This document shows, piece after piece, positions 2,704 through 17,135 of a stretch of 64,000 nucleotides of DNA (positions are counted from its first letter, which is position 1; each line of letters begins with the position of its first letter). The notes beneath the pieces were generated by a model that was not told the origin of the DNA, made no database searches, and saw nothing but the letters and a program-made list of their open reading frames with translations. Source of the DNA: an uncultured Aurantimonas sp. Its GTDB lineage: Bacteria; Pseudomonadota; Alphaproteobacteria; Rhizobiales; Rhizobiaceae. The DNA is taken from positions 1 through 64,000 of the forward strand of contig CANKZU010000010.1 in assembly GCA_947488615.1 (NCBI GenBank), read 5' to 3'. The translations under genes and the position numbers were made by a program.

Positions 2704-3663
2704 ATGCAAGACATCCTCAACGTCATCGTCCCGATCTTCAGCCTGATCGCCCTCGGCTTTCTGGCGGCCCGGGCGAAGCTGTTGTCGGACGCGACCGGCG
2801 AGGCGCTGGCCCGCTTCGTCTTCGTCGTCGCGGTGCCGGTGCTGCTGTTCCGCACCCTCGCCACCTCGGCCTTCGGCGATGCCAACCCGCTGTTCCTGTG
2901 GCTGACCTATTTCAGCGCCATCGCCATCGTCTGGACGATCGGCAGCGTCGTGGTCCGGCGGCTCACCCGCGCCGACCGGCGCGCCGGTGCCATCGCCGGC
3001 ATCTCGTCGAGCTTCGCCAACACCGTCTTCGTCGCCATCCCGACCATCCAGCGCGCCTATGGCGACGCCGGCCTGGAGCCGCTGCTCTTGATTCTCGCCA
3101 TCCATCTGCCGGTGATGATGATCGTCGCGACGCTGATCGTCGAGCGCGCGGCTGTCCTCGACGCGCGCGACGCCGGCACCGCGCCGCCGCAGGTCTCGAC
3201 GGCCGCGACGATGAAGCGGGTCCTGAAGAATCTCGCGACCAACGCCATCATCGTCGGCATCCTGTCGGGTGTCGCCTGGCGCGCCACCGGCCTGCCGCTG
3301 GAAAGCCATATCGACGAGGTCACCAAACTGCTCGGCGGCACGGCCGGACCGCTGGCGTTGTTCGCGCTGGGCATGTCGCTGACCCGCTACGGGTTGCGCG
3401 GCGACATCCTGTCGTCGGCGATCGTCGCGACGCTGTCGCTGGTGGTGATGCCCGCGATCGTGTTCTTTCTCGGCACCTGGCTCGCCCTGCCGCCGCTGTG
3501 GCTGAAGGGGGCGGTGCTCACCGCCGCCGCGCCAGCCGGCGTCAACGCCTATCTCTTCGCGGCCTATTTCCAGTCCGGCGAGAAGCTGGCGGCGACGACG
3601 ATCCTGGTTTCGACGGTACTGTCGGTGATCACCCTGAGCGTGTGGCTGACCGTTCTCGGCTGA
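2704..3663 (+). CDS. AEC (auxin efflux carrier) family transporter
   Basis: MQDILNVIVPIFSLIALGFLAARAKLL... typical AEC protein; ORF extends further 5' but this ATG fits the family. Confidence 0.88.
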   Translation: MQDILNVIVPIFSLIALGFLAARAKLLSDATGEALARFVFVVAVPVLLFRTLATSAFGDANPLFLWLTYFSAIAIVWTIGSVVVRRLTRADRRAGAIAGISSSFANTVFVAIPTIQRAYGDAGLEPLLLILAIHLPVMMIVATLIVERAAVLDARDAGTAPPQVSTAATMKRVLKNLATNAIIVGILSGVAWRATGLPLESHIDEVTKLLGGTAGPLALFALGMSLTRYGLRGDILSSAIVATLSLVVMPAIVFFLGTWLALPPLWLKGAVLTAAAPAGVNAYLFAAYFQSGEKLAATTILVSTVLSVITLSVWLTVLG

Positions 3664-7416: not shown

Positions 7417-8322
7417 TCAGCCGAACACAGCCAGGACCAGCGGCAGGCTTGCCGCCGCCAGCAGCGTCTGCAGCGTGACCAGCCCGGCCATCAGCGTCGC
7501 GTCGCCCTTGAGCTGGGCCGTCAGCACATAGGCGGTCGGGGCGGTCGGCAGCGCGAAGAACACGACGAGCAACGACGTGTCGAGCGGCGACAGAGCGAAC
7601 CAACGCGCAATCAGGGCGGCCAGGATCGGCATGACCAGAAGCCGGGCCGCGCTGTTGAGAAGAAGCGTCGTGGTCTCGGCCCGCGCGGCCGATAGTTTCA
7701 ACGCCGCCCCAACGCACAGGAGCCCGAGCGGCAAGCTCGCCGCCGCCAACAGGCCGAGCAGGCGGTCCGTTCCGAAGGGAAGCCCAATGCCGGTAAGGGC
7801 AAACGCGGCGCCGGCGGCGCAGGCGAGGATCAGCGGATTGCGCACCAGCGGAATGAGCAATTGACGCGCGCTGGTTTCGCGCTCCGCCGTCAGGGCGATG
7901 ACCGAAAGGACATTCACGGCGGGCACCAGCACGGCGAGGACGACCGCCGCGCGGGCCAGCCCCTCTGGCCCGTAGAGGCTGGCGACGAGGGCAAGCCCCA
8001 GATAGGTGTTGAACCGGACGGTTCCCTGGACCAGCGGCCCGTAGCGCGCGGCCGGCCACCCTCGCCAGCGGCGCAGCAGCGCGAGAACGACGGCGGCCAC
8101 GGCCAGTACGGCCAGAATCGCCGCGGCGAGGCCAAGCAGCGCCGGGTCGGCCAGCGGCGCCTTGGCGAGACTGGCGAACAGCAGCGCGGGAAACAGCACG
8201 AAATAGTTGAGCTTTTCCGCCGCCGGCCAGAAGCTCTCGCCCGGAAAGGCCGACCGCCGGAACACGAGGCCCGCGAGGATCAGGGCAAACAGCGGCCAAA
8301 GGGTCAGGAAGATCGCCTGCAT
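7417..8322 (-). CDS. AEC family transporter
   Basis: 301-aa membrane protein with AEC features (NTYLGLALVASLYGPEGL). Confidence 0.85.
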   Translation of the reverse strand: MQAIFLTLWPLFALILAGLVFRRSAFPGESFWPAAEKLNYFVLFPALLFASLAKAPLADPALLGLAAAILAVLAVAAVVLALLRRWRGWPAARYGPLVQGTVRFNTYLGLALVASLYGPEGLARAAVVLAVLVPAVNVLSVIALTAERETSARQLLIPLVRNPLILACAAGAAFALTGIGLPFGTDRLLGLLAAASLPLGLLCVGAALKLSAARAETTTLLLNSAARLLVMPILAALIARWFALSPLDTSLLVVFFALPTAPTAYVLTAQLKGDATLMAGLVTLQTLLAAASLPLVLAVFG

Positions 8323-8365
8323 CGCCTCGTATCAACCCTCGCCGGGGAGATCGCCACGCTTCTCC

Positions 8366-8908
8366 TCAAGCGAACCGATCGGCCTTGGCGACGGCGCTGC
8401 GCAGCGCCACGGCCGCGAAGAGGGCGGACGCGACGGCGTTCCAGCCGGCGAAGGACAGGCCGAGGAAGCGACCGGCCGCCTCGTCGCAGGAGGGCGGACG
8501 GATGGCGTCGATGGTGGCAAGGAGGTCGCCGCCCATCAGGTCGCTGCCGCCGACCTGTCCGCAATCGGCCGGTCCCGGCCAGAAGCCCCACTCGACGCCC
8601 GAATGGAAGACGCCGAGATAGAGCGAATAGAGCATGATCAGACCGATCGCGAGGAGCAGCGCTCGGGTGAGAACCGCCGGCGCCCGCCCCGCCGCCGCGA
8701 CGAAGGCGACAAGCGCGATGGGGATCGACACGTAATAGGGAATGCGCTGTTCCAGGCAGAGCGCGCAAGGGATGTAGCCGCCGACATGCTGGAAGAGTAG
8801 CGCCGTGCCGACGGTCATCGCCGTTCCAGCAGTGAGGAACCCCGAGGCCAGCGTCTGGCGAAAGCCGGTCGGGCGCTTGAAGCGTTCAGTCAATCCCATC
8901 GAAATCAT
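8366..8908 (-). CDS. disulfide bond formation protein B (DsbB family)
   Basis: PCALCLEQRIPYY motif, four TM helices, periplasmic Cys. Confidence 0.88.
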   Translation of the reverse strand: MISMGLTERFKRPTGFRQTLASGFLTAGTAMTVGTALLFQHVGGYIPCALCLEQRIPYYVSIPIALVAFVAAAGRAPAVLTRALLLAIGLIMLYSLYLGVFHSGVEWGFWPGPADCGQVGGSDLMGGDLLATIDAIRPPSCDEAAGRFLGLSFAGWNAVASALFAAVALRSAVAKADRFA

Positions 8909-8911
8909 CCG

Positions 8912-9493
8912 TTACATCACATACCGCAACACGACGAAGCCGCCGACGAGCAGAACCATGAAGAGGGTGAAGAGCATGCCGAGATTGTTCTCGATGAACC
9001 CTTTGATCGGCGCGCCGTAGCGATTGAGCAGCCAGGCGACGAGGAAGAACCGCACGCCCCGGCCGATGATCGAGACGACGGTAAAGGTCACCAGATTGAG
9101 CCCGGTGACGCCGGAAAAGATCGTCAGAACCTTGTAGGGAAACGGCGTCATCGCTGCGAACAACACCGCCCAGCCGCCCCAGGCATTGTAGCGGGCCGTC
9201 AGTTCGGCGAAAGAGTCCGCCTTGCCGTAGAGCTCGAGAAGCGGTCGGCCGACGAGATCGAAGAACAGGGCGCCGATGGCATAGCCGAGAAACGCCCCGA
9301 GCACCGAAGCGACCGTACAGACCAACGCGATTCGGAACCACTTCGCCCGCTCCGCGATCACCATCGGGATCAACAGCACATCCGGCGGGATCGGGAAAAC
9401 CGAGCTTTCGATGAAGGATACGGCGGCCAGCGCCCGCTCCGCATGGCGGGTCGCGGCCAGTGACATGACCCAATCATAGAGGCGGCGGAGCAT
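8912..9493 (-). CDS. YqaA family (DedA/SNARE-associated-like) membrane protein
   Basis: MLRRLYDWVMSLAATRHAERALAAVSFIESSVFPIPPDVLLIPM...TPFPYKVLTIFSG. Confidence 0.88.
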   Translation of the reverse strand: MLRRLYDWVMSLAATRHAERALAAVSFIESSVFPIPPDVLLIPMVIAERAKWFRIALVCTVASVLGAFLGYAIGALFFDLVGRPLLELYGKADSFAELTARYNAWGGWAVLFAAMTPFPYKVLTIFSGVTGLNLVTFTVVSIIGRGVRFFLVAWLLNRYGAPIKGFIENNLGMLFTLFMVLLVGGFVVLRYVM

Positions 9494-9664
9494 GGCGGGT
9501 TCCAGACCTGGGGTGCGAGACGAGGCCCGCGCACATGGCTGGCGCATAGGACGAACGCGGCGCAAACGCAATTGCCGTTGCCGCATCGCACAGAAGGGAG
9601 AACGCCGGCATTGACCGAGGAACCGTTGCGGCTATAGTCCCGCGTCGAATGGCCGAGGCCGTTC

Positions 9665-9749
9665 GCCCCTGTGGCGGAATTGGTAGACGCGCGCGACTCA
9701 AAATCGCGTTCCGCAAGGAGTGCTGGTTCGATCCCGGCCAGGGGCACCA
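9665..9749 (+). tRNA. tRNA-Leu (anticodon CAA), CCA encoded
   Basis: GCCCCTG/CAGGGGC acceptor stem, CGCGA-CTCAAAA-TCGCG anticodon arm, long variable arm, GCTGG-TTCGATC-CCGGC T arm. Confidence 0.95.
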
Positions 9750-9775
9750 ATGTTCCGGCGCTGTTCTGGAACGAC

Positions 9776-11407
9776 ATGACCACATCATCATCCTATGCCG
9801 ATCTTTATGCCGGCTTCCGCTGGAATCTGCCGGACCGCTTCAACATCGCCGCAGCCTGCGCCGATGTCTGGGCGGCGCGCGAGCCCGACCGGATCTGCCT
9901 GATCGAGGACCGGGGCGGTGATGCAGCGCGAACGCTGACCTACGCCGACCTCTCGCGCCGCTCTGCTCGGCTGGCGGCCAGCTTCGCGGCGCGCGGCGTC
10001 AGGCGCGGCGACCGGGTCGCGATCGTGCTGCCGCAGAGCTTCGAGGCGGCGATCGCGCATCTGGCGGTCTATCGCCTCGGCGCCATCGCCGTGCCGCTGG
10101 CGCTGCGTTTCGGGCCCGAGGCGCTCGGCTTTCGTCTGAAGGCGTCGGGGGCGCGCATGGTGGTGATCGACGCCGCCGGGCTTGCCACGCTCGCCGCTGT
10201 CGACGAGCCGCTGCCGGACCTCGCCGAGATCGTCGCTATCGAGGCCGAAACGCCCGGCATTCTCGACTTCGCAGCGCTTGAAGCGCAAGCGGGTCCGGAC
10301 GCCGGAACCGCCGACACGACGCCCGACGATCCGGCGATGATCATCTTCACTTCCGGCACCACCGGGCCACCGAAGGGCGCGCTGCACGGCCATCGCGTGC
10401 TGCTCGGCCATCTGCCGGGCATGCGCTTCCACCATGAAGGCTTCCCCCAACCCAGCGACCGTCTGTGGACGCCGTCGGACTGGGCCTGGGCCGGCGGCCT
10501 GCTCAACGCGCTCCTGCCCTCGCTGCTCCTCGGCGTGCCGGTCGTCTTCACCAAGGCGCGGTTCGAGGCCGGAGAGGCCTTCGCGCTGATGGCGCGGCAA
10601 AAGGTTCGCAACGCCTTCCTGCCGGCGACGGCGCTGCGCATGATGAAGGGCGCCGCCAGCCCCGACGCGGTCGCCGGGCTCAACCTTCGCACGATCGGTT
10701 CGGCCGGCGAGACGCTGCCGCGCGACACATTCCTGTGGGCGCGGGAGACGCTTGGGCTGACCGTGAACGAGTTCTACGGCCAGACCGAATGCAACATGGT
10801 GCTCGGATCGTCGGCGGCTTATGGCGTGTCGCGTGCCGGGGCGATCGGCAAGGTCGTACCCGGTCACCGCGTCGCCGTCCTCGATTCCGACGGTCGCGAG
10901 ATGGCGCGCGGCGAGACCGGGACGATCGCGGTCAAGGCGCCCGATCCGGTGATGTTTCTCGGCTACTGGCAGGACCCGGCCGCGACGGCGGCAAAGTTTT
11001 CCGGCGACTGGCTGACCACCGGCGACCAGGGCGTCATGGACGAAGAGGATTATGTCACCTTTTTCGGGCGCGACGACGACGTCATCACTTCCGCCGGATA
11101 CCGAATCGGGCCGGGCGAGATCGAGGATTGCCTGCTCGCCCATCCCGGCGTCGCCCTCGCCGCCGTCGTCGGCAAGCCGGACCCGATGCGCACCGAAATC
11201 GTCAAGGCCTATGTGGTGCCAGCCGACGGATTTGCGCCGGATGCCACACTCGCGGCGTCGATCCAGCAATTCGTGCGCGAGCGGCTGTCGGCCCATGAAT
11301 ATCCGCGCGAGGTCGCCTTCGTCGACGAGATGCCGCTGACGACGAGCGGCAAGATCGTGCGCCGGGTGTTTCGGGAGCAAGCGAGGCAAGAGATCGCGGC
11401 GGTTTAG
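9776..11407 (+). CDS. AMP-binding acyl-CoA synthetase
   Basis: IIFTSGTTGPPKGALHGH and EFYGQTECNMV adenylate-forming enzyme motifs. Confidence 0.9.
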   Translation: MTTSSSYADLYAGFRWNLPDRFNIAAACADVWAAREPDRICLIEDRGGDAARTLTYADLSRRSARLAASFAARGVRRGDRVAIVLPQSFEAAIAHLAVYRLGAIAVPLALRFGPEALGFRLKASGARMVVIDAAGLATLAAVDEPLPDLAEIVAIEAETPGILDFAALEAQAGPDAGTADTTPDDPAMIIFTSGTTGPPKGALHGHRVLLGHLPGMRFHHEGFPQPSDRLWTPSDWAWAGGLLNALLPSLLLGVPVVFTKARFEAGEAFALMARQKVRNAFLPATALRMMKGAASPDAVAGLNLRTIGSAGETLPRDTFLWARETLGLTVNEFYGQTECNMVLGSSAAYGVSRAGAIGKVVPGHRVAVLDSDGREMARGETGTIAVKAPDPVMFLGYWQDPAATAAKFSGDWLTTGDQGVMDEEDYVTFFGRDDDVITSAGYRIGPGEIEDCLLAHPGVALAAVVGKPDPMRTEIVKAYVVPADGFAPDATLAASIQQFVRERLSAHEYPREVAFVDEMPLTTSGKIVRRVFREQARQEIAAV

Positions 11408-11595
11408 GAACGTGCCGTCGTAGCCTTGAAAACCGGCAATGAAAGATGCCCCGTTCGTTACCCGGCCACAGAAAGAATAGAGGAAATTGGCGCTCCTCTC
11501 TCGCCGGGCTCTCAAAAATTTGATCGATATGGAACGACTTGGAGGCCGTTTCGTTCGGCAACCGGATACGTCGATCACTTTTAGGAGAGCAGTTC

Positions 11596-11922
11596 ATGAA
11601 ACGGTTGATCATTGTCGCATTTGCGGCCCTTGCCCTCGGGGCCTGCAGCAGCTCCGGCTCGGACGGCAGCGGCGGAACGGGCGGAGGCGGTGGCGGCTTG
11701 GTCAGCGTCAACATTTCCGACGTGCGCGCGGAAATCGCCAAGAACGTCAACGTCTCGCTCGAGGACGTGCCGATCACCATCCAGCTTCCCGTCGACGTCG
11801 CCGCGAATGTCTGCGGCACCAACGTCAATGTGTTGACCCTCCAGATCAACGCCAACGAAAACACCTGCCGCGCGACGACGACATCGGCCGCGCTCGAGCA
11901 GGCGGTGCGCAATCAGATCTAG
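11596..11922 (+). CDS. small lipoprotein with chaplin-like C-terminal core (copy 1)
   Basis: Lipobox LGAC, Gly/Ser linker, PVDVAANVCGTNVNVLTLQINANENTC; RBS aggagag. Confidence 0.85.
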   Translation: MKRLIIVAFAALALGACSSSGSDGSGGTGGGGGGLVSVNISDVRAEIAKNVNVSLEDVPITIQLPVDVAANVCGTNVNVLTLQINANENTCRATTTSAALEQAVRNQI

Positions 11923-12010
11923 GAAGCATTTCCGCGAGCGAACAGGCCGTCCCGCAACGCGGGGCGGCGCCACACCCGCCCGAGGCAGGGCCAGCATTCT
12001 GGAGAATAAA

Positions 12011-12340
12011 ATGCTACGACTTCTACTGGCGCCCGCCGCGGCGTTACTTCTGGCGGGTTGCCAGTCCAGCGGCTCGGATAGTGGCGGGTCGGGCGGCGGC
12101 GGCCTGAGCGGCCTCGTCAACGTCAATCTGGAAGACATTCGCGCCGAGATCGCCAAGAACGTCAATCTCGACCTCGACAGCGTTCCGATCACGATCCAGA
12201 TCCCGATCACGATCGCCGCCAATGTTTGCGGGACCAACGTCAACATCCTGACGGTGCAGATGAACGCCGGCGACAACAACTGCACGGCGAGGGCCTCGAC
12301 CGCCGAACTCGAGCAGGAAGTGATCAATCAGGGCGTCTGA
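12011..12340 (+). CDS. small lipoprotein with chaplin-like C-terminal core (copy 2)
   Basis: Lipobox LAGC, Gly/Ser linker, PITIAANVCGTNVNILTVQMNAGDNNC; RBS ggaga; clear paralog of 11596..11922. Confidence 0.85.
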   Translation: MLRLLLAPAAALLLAGCQSSGSDSGGSGGGGLSGLVNVNLEDIRAEIAKNVNLDLDSVPITIQIPITIAANVCGTNVNILTVQMNAGDNNCTARASTAELEQEVINQGV

Positions 12341-12431
12341 TACACCGACGCCTTCAACGGCGTCCCGCTTTCTCGGGTCGCCCATCGTCGCATGAAACGT
12401 CGCTCCGGGATGGCACAGCCGTCTCGGAGCG

Positions 12432-13715
12432 CTATCCCAGCGACAGCATGGCCCGCAGCCGCTCACGCATCAGGCGGGCGAAATTGCGCGAGCGGTGCAT
12501 CGACGAGAGCCCTTTCGCCGCCGCTTCGACACGCCGCGCGCCATTCGGATTCAAACCGAGAACGATGGTTGCGATCTCAATCCGATCGGACCAGAACCGG
12601 TTCATCACGAAATGGTCCGGCATGGCACAGGAATCGGCGCGCTTGACGGCCGGATCCGCCAGCAAGGCAAGGGTCGCTTCGGCGACGACCTGCTGCCCCG
12701 GCGAGGCGGCCGCGAAGGCTTCGTCATACGCGCTCTTCCAGGCGTAGGCCTCGCCGCGATCGACAAAGGCGACAAGACTGGCCACGGTCCGCGCGCCCAC
12801 CTTGAGCGTGAAGACGCGCACCCGCCCATCGGCGGCCAGAGCATTGACCGCTTCGCGGGCGAAAGCCGCGCGATAGCGGTCGGTAATCAGGGCGCTGCGC
12901 TGCCGGCCCTTCCAGCCGCTGGCCTCCAGAGCGAAAAAATCCTCCAGCGCCAATCGGACATCCTCCCTGGCGCGGGCGACGTCGAAGCTGACCGGACCGG
13001 TGGCTTCCAGAAGACGGCGCTGGCGGGCGCGTTCGCGCCGACGCCGGCCCGAAAGGGCCGACAGAGTGTGAGGGCCGCCGTCCGCGTCCTTGAGCAGCGC
13101 CGCGCGCGTCATGCGGTTGACGCAGGTGGCCGGCAAGCCGCGTTCCTTCGCCACCGCCAGAAGAGTCGTCGCCATCGCGCCATCGATGCGGACATCTGGC
13201 AAGACGAGGACGTCGGGCAGGGCGAATTCAGGCCGCGCGATCGTTTCGAGGAAGCTTGCCAGCGTGTCCGTCGGATCGTCGCCATCGACAGGAATCGTGC
13301 CCAGCGGACCGAACGGATGCGTCCAGGCGCGGATCGTCGCGGGTCCGCCGACGGCCGCGGACCGTTCCAGCGAAAACGGCATCAGGAGGCGCAACCGGCT
13401 GCGCGACCCGGCCTCGTCGCGGACCACCATGAGCCGGACCTTGCGTTCGTCGAGCCGCGGCATGGCGGGCACGAGGAACTGCGGATCAAAGAAGACGTTC
13501 GGCTCGATCGCCCGGCGGGACAGATGCGACAGCTCCTCGACCAGACCGAACGCGGCCATCGGGGCATAGATCGAGAAATGGCGGACAGTATCGCCGCGCG
13601 AAACGGCGATGTCGCGCTCCGGATCGTGGACAAGCTCCGCTCCGCCAGCCAGCGCGATCTCGGGAGCGGCCAGAGGCGGGACGAACAACTCGTCGACAAG
13701 AGGCTTGGCTGCCAT
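12432..13715 (-). CDS. GNAT/FemAB-like (BioF2-type) acetyltransferase
   Basis: C-terminal SFDVARAREDVRLALEDFFALEASGWKGRQRSAL...KSAYDEAFAAASPGQQV as in Acetyltransf_6-type proteins. Confidence 0.75.
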   Translation of the reverse strand: MAAKPLVDELFVPPLAAPEIALAGGAELVHDPERDIAVSRGDTVRHFSIYAPMAAFGLVEELSHLSRRAIEPNVFFDPQFLVPAMPRLDERKVRLMVVRDEAGSRSRLRLLMPFSLERSAAVGGPATIRAWTHPFGPLGTIPVDGDDPTDTLASFLETIARPEFALPDVLVLPDVRIDGAMATTLLAVAKERGLPATCVNRMTRAALLKDADGGPHTLSALSGRRRRERARQRRLLEATGPVSFDVARAREDVRLALEDFFALEASGWKGRQRSALITDRYRAAFAREAVNALAADGRVRVFTLKVGARTVASLVAFVDRGEAYAWKSAYDEAFAAASPGQQVVAEATLALLADPAVKRADSCAMPDHFVMNRFWSDRIEIATIVLGLNPNGARRVEAAAKGLSSMHRSRNFARLMRERLRAMLSLG

Positions 13716-13838
13716 GACTCGATGATCCAAATGCAATCATTCGACGTAATTCGCGCATCTCACGCACGAAGCCGATCGGTTCTCCCGCAAAGATTAGGCC
13801 CATAGCCTTAAGATTCAGTCGCCGATAAGGGTCGGAAT

Positions 13839-14390
13839 TTACCCGGCGAACCCGCCCTCCACGAGAAATTGCCGCTCCGCCTCGCTCGACCGCCGACCAA
13901 GGATGGCGTTCCGATGGGGGAAACGCTGGAACCGCGCGATGATGTCGCGATGCTCTTTCGCGAAAGCAACATTGCTCTCGTCGCCGATCTCGCCCATCCA
14001 CGCGACGCACGCGTCCTGATCCGCCAGGCTCTCCGCATGCATCATCGGCATGGCGAGAAACTGGTTCACGTCCTCCGCGACCGTTCGATGGTCGCCGCGG
14101 GCGAGCGCCTCCCGTGCGATTTCCAGCGCCCGCTCGTCCGTCGCGAAGGCTTTGGGCGTGTTTCGGAACATGTTGCGAGGGAATTGATCGAGCAGAATCA
14201 CCAGCGCCAGCGCTCCCGTCGGGTCCCTCCGCCACGCATCAAGTTCGCCGCGAACCGCCTGCTCGTAGATGTCGCCGAAGCGCCGCAGGATGGCCTCGTC
14301 GAATTCGGCGTCCTTGCCGAACCATCGCTCCGAACCGGCCTCGCGCCAGAAATCGACGATGGTCTGGGGATCGATCGAAACGGTGCTCAT
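13839..14390 (-). CDS. DUF924 family protein
   Basis: IVDFWREAGSERWFGKDAEFDEAI...LVILLDQFPRNMFRNTPKAFATD. Confidence 0.9.
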   Translation of the reverse strand: MSTVSIDPQTIVDFWREAGSERWFGKDAEFDEAILRRFGDIYEQAVRGELDAWRRDPTGALALVILLDQFPRNMFRNTPKAFATDERALEIAREALARGDHRTVAEDVNQFLAMPMMHAESLADQDACVAWMGEIGDESNVAFAKEHRDIIARFQRFPHRNAILGRRSSEAERQFLVEGGFAG

Positions 14391-14445
14391 GCACGACTCC
14401 ATTGGGCAGGCAAGGCGGCGGGAGTGCCGACGGAACGCGGTCCGG

Positions 14446-15636
14446 TCAGCCGAAGCGATGTCCCGGCACCGCCAGCGGGTTGGCTTCGAGGGCGGTCCGG
14501 TCGGGCGCGTCGGTCCGAACCCCGCCGGTGAAGGCGGCGAAGAGATCGCGGACATAGGTCTCGGGAAGCGCTTCGCCGATCAGGACGATCCGCGTTTCCC
14601 GGTTCGCGCCGGCCGGCCAGGCGGGAAGCTGTGCGGGCGGATGCAGATAGCCCTGGACGCCGTGCAGCACGACCGGCCGCTCAGGGTATTCGCTGGTATG
14701 AACGAGCGCCTTCATGCGCAGGATGCGCTGGCCCTGGGTCGAGCGCAGAAGATCGAGAAACCCGTCGATGGAGTCCCAGAGCACCGGTTCGCGGCACACC
14801 AGCGAGAACGAGCGTACCGCGCCGTGGTGCGCGTGCGCGTGATCGTGGTGCGCGTGCGCGTGATGATGTGGCAGCGCGCCATCATCGGCGCCGTGAGCAT
14901 GGTCGCGGGCCGCCGCAGGGTGAGATTCGACGCCGGATTCCAGGCCCAGCCATCGGTGCGGGTCGGCGGTGCCGGAATCCGGATCGTAGACGCCGCAATT
15001 GAGCAGACGCGGTGCCAGCGGGCGCCCGTCGCCCGCGTCGATGACCGGCGCACGCGAATTCAGCGCGGCGATGGCCGCGTCCGGAGACACGGCCCCGGTC
15101 TCCACCGCGAGATCGGACTTGGTGAGGACGATCCGGTCGGCCACCGCCACTTGCCGTTGCGCCTCTTCCCGCTCGGCGAGGTTCCGGGCGCCGGCCAGCC
15201 GGTCGACCACCGCGACGACCCCGTCCAGCGCGTAGGTTTCCAACAGCCCCGGATGGGTCATCAACGAGGCCAGGATGGGAACCGGGTCGGCAAGACCGGT
15301 GGTTTCGATGATCACCCGCTCCAGCGCCGAATTGCCGCTGGAGCGCGGGCGCGTCGCCAGCGTGATGAGGGTTTCGACGAGTTCGCCACGCACGCTGCAG
15401 CACAGGCAGCCGTCCGACAATTCGATGACCCCGTCGCTCGACGCCGTCTCGACGAGGAGCTGGTCGATCCCGGCCTCGCCGAACTCGTTGACGACCACCG
15501 CTGTGTTGGTCACGGCCGACTCGCGCAGCAGACGGTTGAGCAGCGTCGTCTTGCCGGACCCCAGAAACCCGGTGAGGATGGTCAGCCGGATCGGCCGTCG
15601 CACCTGGCCGCTCGGGAACTCAGCTGCGGATGCCAT
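14446..15636 (-). CDS. CobW/COG0523 family GTP-binding metallochaperone with His-rich loop
   Basis: [15 protein letters not shown] Walker [12 protein letters not shown] metal motif, [16 protein letters not shown] stretch. Confidence 0.92.
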
Positions 15637-17135
15637 CAGTTCGCGGCCGGCGGTGGCGGCGCCGGAAACGGGACAGGGCTTCCCGGCTGAAGGGCGAGAG
15701 CCGCATCGCCGCCCTCGCGGTATATGTCGAGCCGCGACGTCTTCCCACGCAGGCCACCCGTCGCGGCCTCGGACGAACGCAGGTCGGATGCCGCAGGATC
15801 ATCGAAGCGGGCATTCCCAACCATTGTCGCTGGCTCGGCAACGGCTTTCTGCGCCGCATCGCCTTCCCCGCCATTCTCCTCGCCATCAATCAGGTCATCC
15901 GTTGCGCCGGCTTCGTTGGTGACCGCTGGCGGTATGAGGTCGTCCACCGTCAGTGGCGGCGTCATCGCCATGTCCTGCGGCCGGGCGGGCCGGGGCGTCG
16001 GCAGCGGGATGCCATAGGCCGATATCAAGGAGATTCCGGGTTCGGCGATCTCATTGCCGGCCGCGCCGCCCAGACTGACCGGAAGGACGACAGGCGAACG
16101 ATTCATGTCGTGAAGATAGGGCGAGCCGTAGGTCTCCTCGCGCTCCTTTTCCTCGACGCGCTCATTGGCGCGGGCCGAGCGGCCCTTGGACGAACAGATG
16201 TAGCCGCTGACGTCGAGCGGTTCGCCGGCGGCGGTCGGCAGTTCGTCGACCGTGGTGTCGATCTTCGCGGGATCGGCCTTGAAACCAGCCTCCAGGATCT
16301 CGGCAGCGTTGCGTTCACGCTCGATCGTGCCGTTGGCGCCAATGACGACGGCGACGAGCGTGCGCCCCTCCCGCGTTGCCGACGACACCAGATTGAACCC
16401 GGAGGCACAAATATAGCCGGTCTTCATGCCGTCGGCCCCGTCGAAGCGGCCGAGCAGCTTGTTGCCGTTCTTCATGACCCTCTTGCCGCTAGAGATCGCC
16501 TCCGTGTTGAAAAAGTCCGAGAACGCCGGAAACTCCCGGCGAATGGCGACACCGAGAATGGCCAGATCCTTGGCACTGGTGTACTGGCCGTCGCCGGGCA
16601 GGCCGTTGGGATTGATGAACCGCGTGTCCAGCATCCCGAGCCGCTTCGCCGTGTCGTTCATCATAGTGACGAACGTCTCCATCGAACCGTCGCCGATCGT
16701 CTGGCCGATGGCAAAGGCGACGTCGTTCGCCGACTTGACCAGCATCATGCGCAAGGCGTTGTCGAGCCGGATGACCGAGCCGGGCTGATACCCCATCTTG
16801 CTGGGCGGCTCGGCCGCCGCGCGGCGGGTCATGACCACCGGCGTATCAAGCGCCGCGCGTTCCTCACGCAGCGCTTTCAGCGCGAGGTAGGCGGTCATCA
16901 GCTTGGTCGTCGAAGCCGGGTAACGGCGCTCCGTCGCCCGATCCTGAGACAGCACTTTACCGGTCTCGACATCGACGACGATCGATGCCATCGGCTGCGC
17001 GGTGTCTTCGGCGGCGATCGCGCGCGAATCGCGTCCCGCGATCGGCATCGCGCCGAGCAACGCCACAGCGAGGCAGGCCGCGGTAAACAATTGAAAATGA
17101 CGGGAGGCGAGCGTCTTCACGCTGGATTCCTTCAT
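15636..17135 (-). CDS. D-alanyl-D-alanine carboxypeptidase (S11)
   Basis: [18 protein letters not shown] SxxK motif, KSANDVA (SxN), [12 protein letters not shown] (KTG). Confidence 0.9.

Follow-up and report, generated by a model that had tools for sequence, protein, structure and literature searches.

The stretch of DNA analysed here (the window, 64,000 nucleotides of an uncultured Aurantimonas sp.) carries two small genes arranged in tandem on the plus strand with 88 bases between them, positioned between a gene for an acyl-CoA synthetase (AMP-binding, plus strand) and a gene for a GNAT-type acyltransferase (minus strand). Each of the two encodes a short signal peptide with a lipobox, a Gly/Ser linker of approximately 16 residues and a domain of approximately 75 residues with two cysteines, and each is preceded by a purine-rich stretch resembling a ribosome-binding site (AGGAGA for copy 1, GGAGA for copy 2). 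The features of the locus are:

11392..12441, no strand assigned: inserted stretch carrying the pair, approximately 1.05 kb, ends approximate (blastn of 8000-16500 versus syntenic loci)
11596..11922, plus strand: copy 1, chaplin-related lipoprotein, 108 aa (open reading frame; PF03777 E 1.9e-6, 28.0 bits)
11596..11646, plus strand: copy 1 signal peptide and lipobox LGAC, with lipid-carrying Cys17 and Ser at +2 (read from sequence)
11647..11694, plus strand: copy 1 Gly/Ser-rich linker, residues 18-33, predicted disordered (sequence; AlphaFold pLDDT <50 at residues 26-32)
11767..11868, plus strand: copy 1 chaplin-like core VPITIQLPVDVAANVCGTNVNVLTLQINANENTC, residues 58-91, with Cys73 and Cys91 (PF03777 positions 25-55; chaplin HMM alignment)
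12011..12340, plus strand: copy 2, chaplin-related lipoprotein, 109 aa (open reading frame; PF03777 E 7.9e-5, 22.9 bits)
12011..12061, plus strand: copy 2 signal peptide and lipobox LAGC, with Cys17 and Gln at +2 (read from sequence)
12182..12283, plus strand: copy 2 chaplin-like core VPITIQIPITIAANVCGTNVNILTVQMNAGDNNC, with Cys73 and Cys91 (PF03777 positions 25-56; chaplin HMM alignment)

Anchoring, selection and genomic setting of the pair

The initial annotation described tandem small lipoproteins of 108 and 109 residues in an alphaproteobacterium, and in this it was right: both open reading frames are present as described, with lipoboxes LGAC and LAGC as read from the sequence, the cores quoted for the two copies are exact, and the host belongs to Aurantimonas. 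Both copies carry a lipobox of the pattern [LVI][ASTVI][GAS]C at the end of the signal peptide, with Cys17 in each, the Gly at the second place of the copy 1 lipobox being a common variant; the Pfam lipoprotein models LPAM_1 (15.7 bits on copy 1, under the cut-off of 20) and LPAM_MltD (12.5 bits on copy 2, under its cut-off) add matches below cut-off only. Matches to NCBIfam NGK_0946 and similar models involve the signal peptide only, below cut-off, and were discarded. The Gly/Ser linker matches linkers in engineered proteins and can thereby mislead automatic annotation; a phmmer search of PDB with the product of 11596-11919 returned spurious linker matches, the best of them (E 1.4e-4, query residues 16-73) to an entry annotated as BRCA1.

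The copies share 60% amino acid identity, and over the domain alone they are separated by a dS of 0.73 and a dN of 0.27, the dN/dS of approximately 0.37 indicating that, as judged from sequence divergence, both are real genes with purifying selection acting on them.

The flanking synthetase and acyltransferase genes are syntenic in all eight of the other Aurantimonas genomes compared, in which the alignments of the two flanks lie approximately 70-185 bases apart, versus approximately 1.05 kb here, and the pair is absent from this spacer in all eight. In the closest genome (G007), the acyltransferase is 96% identical and the pair is missing. The GC content of the inserted stretch is 61.6%, versus 65.2% for the window, and at the junction the synthetase gene has a divergent 3' end. 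The conserved synteny, along with the empty spacer in the eight other genomes, points to an insertion of the pair into this lineage, repeated loss being the less simple alternative. The long direct repeats in the region correspond to the tandem duplication itself and to nothing else. A tree built on few usable columns joins the two copies as sister sequences (support 99/99) and places the pair with Chelativorans and with a genome of the same family, G492 (88/85), apart from the resident Aurantimonas paralogues. Among 12 loci inspected by eye, with unannotated and mechanically chosen open reading frames, no neighbour was recognised as conserved, and none that would point to a surface system. 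Farther upstream, a tRNA-Leu gene (anticodon CAA) is located at 9665-9749; it overlaps the 5' end of a 578-aa open reading frame at 9671, so the start of the acyl-CoA synthetase must lie further downstream.

The chaplin-like core

As to the resemblance to the chaplins, the coat-forming amyloid proteins of Streptomyces, recognized in the initial annotation from the letters along with a spacing of 18 residues between the cysteines, it is upheld by Pfam, by reciprocal HMM searches and by profile-profile comparison, and Cys73 and Cys91 are indeed 18 residues apart in both copies, equal to the spacing in the Streptomyces chaplins compared. PF03777 (ChpA-C, formerly DUF320), a profile of 57 positions with a curated gathering cut-off of 21 bits, matches both copies above this cut-off (28.0 and 22.9 bits), yet over positions 25-56 only, and in a scan of 296 genomes of the class, matches over the cut-off came from this genome alone. 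An HMM built from ten streptomycete chaplin sequences scores 21.7 and 20.5 bits on the copies; when the domains of the copies were shuffled approximately 10,000 times, the highest score was 13.4 bits. When the 34-aa core was compared by tblastn to 72,556 plasmids, ten records were returned, nine streptomycete and one from Gemmatirosa (best identity 61%), with most matches falling under genes annotated as chaplin; as the best E was only 0.08, the value of this search is in its specificity and not in significance. We reject a chance match or a linker artefact, since the PF03777 match, at residues 61-91, is clear of the Gly/Ser linker, and shuffles fail to reproduce it.

Another identity that was weighed is that of UrcA-like secreted proteins (TIGR04433), a small two-cysteine proteobacterial family with a similar pattern, AAxVC...CxA...ALxxAV. 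Weak matches to TIGR04433 occur in 4 of 24 members of the family to which the copies belong (best E 0.0077), but neither copy is matched at E up to 10, none are found in this genome or in 60 relatives, and PF03777 scores far higher. We thus reject this identity as extremely improbable.

Convergence of secreted, beta-prone proteins on a short pattern, VxVPVxVxxNVCGxxVNV, with no common descent, was also weighed, as the match spans only approximately 33 residues, the N-terminal half of the chaplin domain and its GN motifs are missing from the copies, and some relatives, such as those from Aurantimonas (L058) and Ramlibacter (L065), produce no PF03777 match at all. The reciprocal searches argue against it. 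A family HMM built without chaplins and without the two copies places the chaplins directly behind and in between the most distant of its relatives (best E 2.7e-5), before any unrelated reading frame in a set of 11,648 ORFs, and the chaplin HMM, in reverse, recovers family members as well as both copies, so that each group is found by a profile that excludes it. A further chaplin-free profile, A5, assembled from 18 repeats of Actinomycetota and Chloroflexota, produced 21 matches over nine streptomycete records (approximately 11.9 Mb); nine stretches covering ten of these were read directly, and all carry the chaplin pattern SPGVxSGN...CGN, the remaining matches being on ORFs already recognised as chaplins or on genes with a chaplin annotation, bringing the assignment to 21 of 21. 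Comparison of profiles by hhalign gives P values versus chaplins of 4.5e-7 for a proteobacterial set and 7.5e-7 for a short-repeat set, and these scores were reached by none of 120 control profiles for each set, of which 60 were shuffled completely and 60 with the hydrophobic pattern and the cysteines preserved. The identical spacing of the cysteines, and actinobacterial relatives (L079 and L080) with PF03777 scores of 28.5 and 29.1 bits that bridge the two groups, also speak against convergence, which we consider quite improbable; homology of the approximately 33-residue core to chaplins is well supported by these comparisons.

Distribution of the wider family

All nine Aurantimonas genomes examined contain relatives of the copies, as do 18 of the 249 genomes sampled from the same bacterial family. 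A scan of the GTDB genome set with one narrow motif revealed 31 loci, in Aurantimonas, Chelativorans, Mesorhizobium, Profundibacterium, Sphingomonas, Brevundimonas, Ramlibacter, Burkholderiaceae, Leptolyngbya, Chloroflexota, and several Actinomycetota, a distribution that must be taken as a lower bound because a single motif was scanned; more generally, the counts of relatives depend on narrow scans. An additional member is found on the megaplasmid of Gemmatirosa kalamazoonensis (Gemmatimonadota; L089, around 2791-3147). The copies belong to a sparse, mostly Sec-secreted family represented in Alpha- and Betaproteobacteria, Cyanobacteria, Chloroflexota, Gemmatimonadota, and Actinomycetota. The initial annotation had envisaged an alphaproteobacterial family of lipoproteins, which now requires revision on two points: the range extends well beyond the Alphaproteobacteria, into several phyla, and no lipobox was recognised by eye in any of the relatives read, which carry ordinary Sec signal peptides instead. 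The lipoprotein form of the domain was seen in this pair only.

The closest comparison within the genus is with the resident secreted paralogues (G000 C8:107579-107959; L005, L007), which possess the same domain layout, are 25-37% identical to copy 2 and retain both cysteines, but have a signal peptide ending in AQ, with no lipobox, and are found at loci different from that of the pair. A second secreted subfamily (L012, L013, L016-L018, L041, L042, L045-L054), with the signature VSLGDW..VKT..A..L...PLTV.V....A..VCP...DL.QQ...TRTCAAK, is spread through the bacterial family of this genome; its domain layout is the same, but the chaplin-like VNVL stretch has been lost. L044 and L055, which are nearest to the pair among its relatives, possess long Asp/Gly/Thr-rich C-terminal tails, with the open frame ending near 304 aa and 251 aa, respectively.

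Several members from Actinomycetota and Chloroflexota are built of two to four tandem repeats, the unit being approximately 45 aa with two cysteines (L077, L078, L079, L080, L064, L071, L072). The secreted proteins of these phyla (L077, L079, and L080, for example), following the pattern GLVNVNxxDxTVQVPIxVAANVCGVTVNVLA...C, are clearly of the same family as the copies (hhalign probability 99.8%), but they consist of one to four short repeats, lack both the helical insertion and the C-terminal helix, and are Sec-secreted non-lipoproteins. No family model of their own was found among the models searched, and of all members the repeat proteins seem best suited to bridge the gap to chaplins.

As to mobile elements, a single-protein scan of viral and plasmid collections found no member, and relative L044 had no match among plasmids by tblastn. 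An alignment scan of the viral and plasmid collections did reveal one IMG/VR contig (L117, 1-357) with an Aurantimonas-type member, near a small gene that resembles a phage terminase small subunit; this contig is probably host DNA beside a prophage.

Chaplin-like genes have been described within Actinomycetota, and chaplins have been treated as an innovation presumably gained by horizontal transfer (PMC4255298). Targeted searches of the open-access literature found no report of the family outside Actinomycetota, and the family, thinly scattered over several bacterial phyla, is apparently undescribed. Members in other phyla provide outgroups for the question of chaplin origin, and they allow one to ask which features (GN turns, cysteines, or repeats) make a secreted domain amyloid.

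Possible role and comparison with known systems

Sequence comparison establishes what the pair most probably is, namely real genes under purifying selection that share an approximately 33-residue homologous core with chaplins, belong to a broader secreted family and were inserted locally. The role that we favour, with a probability of roughly 0.5, is that of recently acquired, duplicated and probably outer-membrane lipoproteins that act as structural, adhesive or wettability-changing proteins of the envelope. Under the general rule of lipoprotein sorting in E. coli, the Ser (copy 1) and Gln (copy 2) at +2 would direct both proteins to the outer membrane. Each would then display a single two-cysteine chaplin-core domain on a flexible Gly/Ser tether, with a putative Cys73-Cys91 disulfide, and the amphipathic VxVPVxV segment may mediate association of the tethered domains, either among themselves or with a surface. 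A bolder version, in which the chaplin core is an old, mobile secreted domain spread across diderm and monoderm phyla, and the lipid-anchored outer-membrane pair builds a chaplin-like amphipathic or amyloid layer, appears rather unlikely.

What speaks most against a simple amyloid reading is the predicted structure. The initial annotation had proposed an AlphaFold comparison with the beta-structures of chaplins, and strands are indeed predicted, but so are helices within the core: the elements are a strand at 35-39, a helix at 44-51, a strand at 61-65, helices at 66-73 and 77-85, a strand at 90-92 and a helix at 98-107, of which helices 66-73 and 77-85 fall inside the chaplin-like core, a region reported as beta in chaplins. 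The domain is, with moderate confidence, predicted to be mixed alpha/beta and not an all-beta amyloid core (mean pLDDT 75, with 10-residue blocks across the domain between 74 and 90; pTM 0.53).

This model is at the basis of an alternative reading, that the domain is a globular, disulfide-stabilised periplasmic one that shares an ancestor with chaplins and does not self-assemble, serving as a soluble or tethered envelope accessory, for example in binding a partner or in stabilising the outer membrane, the amyloid of chaplins being then a specialisation within Actinomycetota. The compact beta-alpha-beta-alpha-alpha-beta-alpha arrangement is consistent with it, as are the extra conserved helices that proteobacterial members carry before and after the core, the predominance of members with a signal peptide and with neither an anchor nor a visible export system, and the lower overall hydrophobicity of the mature copies (GRAVY approximately 0.1, compared to 0.18-0.85 for chaplin domains). 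However, the alignment behind the model is shallow (38 sequences), a fold search of PDB with the model returned no matching structure, functional amyloids are poorly served by AlphaFold, and for the actinobacterial repeat form it produced an unusable model with a pLDDT of 50 only. A phmmer search of PDB with a hand-written chaplin-like consensus domain likewise found no chain. We hold a globular accessory domain to be a tangible possibility, albeit one short of even odds. As a small and genetically simple system, the pair lends itself to asking whether a chaplin-type core alters the surface of a Gram-negative cell.

Among the known systems, the rodlins (RdlA/RdlB), surface proteins of Streptomyces that work alongside chaplins and are encoded beside them on plasmids, are the more distant comparison, no sequence match to the copies having been seen. 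The comparison with the Streptomyces chaplins (ChpA-H) is closer. The two groups have in common the core [IV]Q[VLI]P[VI]x[VI]xxN[VI]CGxxVN[VI] and two cysteines exactly 18 residues apart, as well as secretion, the occurrence of tethered or free forms, and several paralogues per genome. The cysteines of chaplins are dispensable for fibrils in vitro and matter in vivo (PMC3079736), and thus their conservation alone is no predictor of amyloid. The differences are as evident. Chaplins are defined by three GN motifs 12-13 residues apart along with two cysteines, their domains being described as beta-sheets with GN turns (PMC13251363; further chaplin features compared here are from PMC5618241). Each of ten chaplin domains possesses three to four GN motifs, whereas neither copy has any, and the SPGVLSGN half of the approximately 40-residue chaplin domain is absent from both, only the C-terminal 33 residues or so being alignable. 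In the AlphaFold prediction, the copies have additional elements on both sides of the core, a strand and a helix on the N-terminal side and a helix on the C-terminal side. Their host, unlike Streptomyces, is Gram-negative, and their anchor is a lipobox, with no sortase signal, whereas chaplins exist as a free short form or as a sortase-anchored long form. Under the definition of PMC13251363, neither copy qualifies as a chaplin in the strict sense, and a more fitting name for the two is lipid-anchored members of a wider chaplin-core superfamily. In the favoured role, the pair would be comparable to the long chaplins, themselves anchored and co-assembling, but would have a lipid anchor where these have a sortase anchor.
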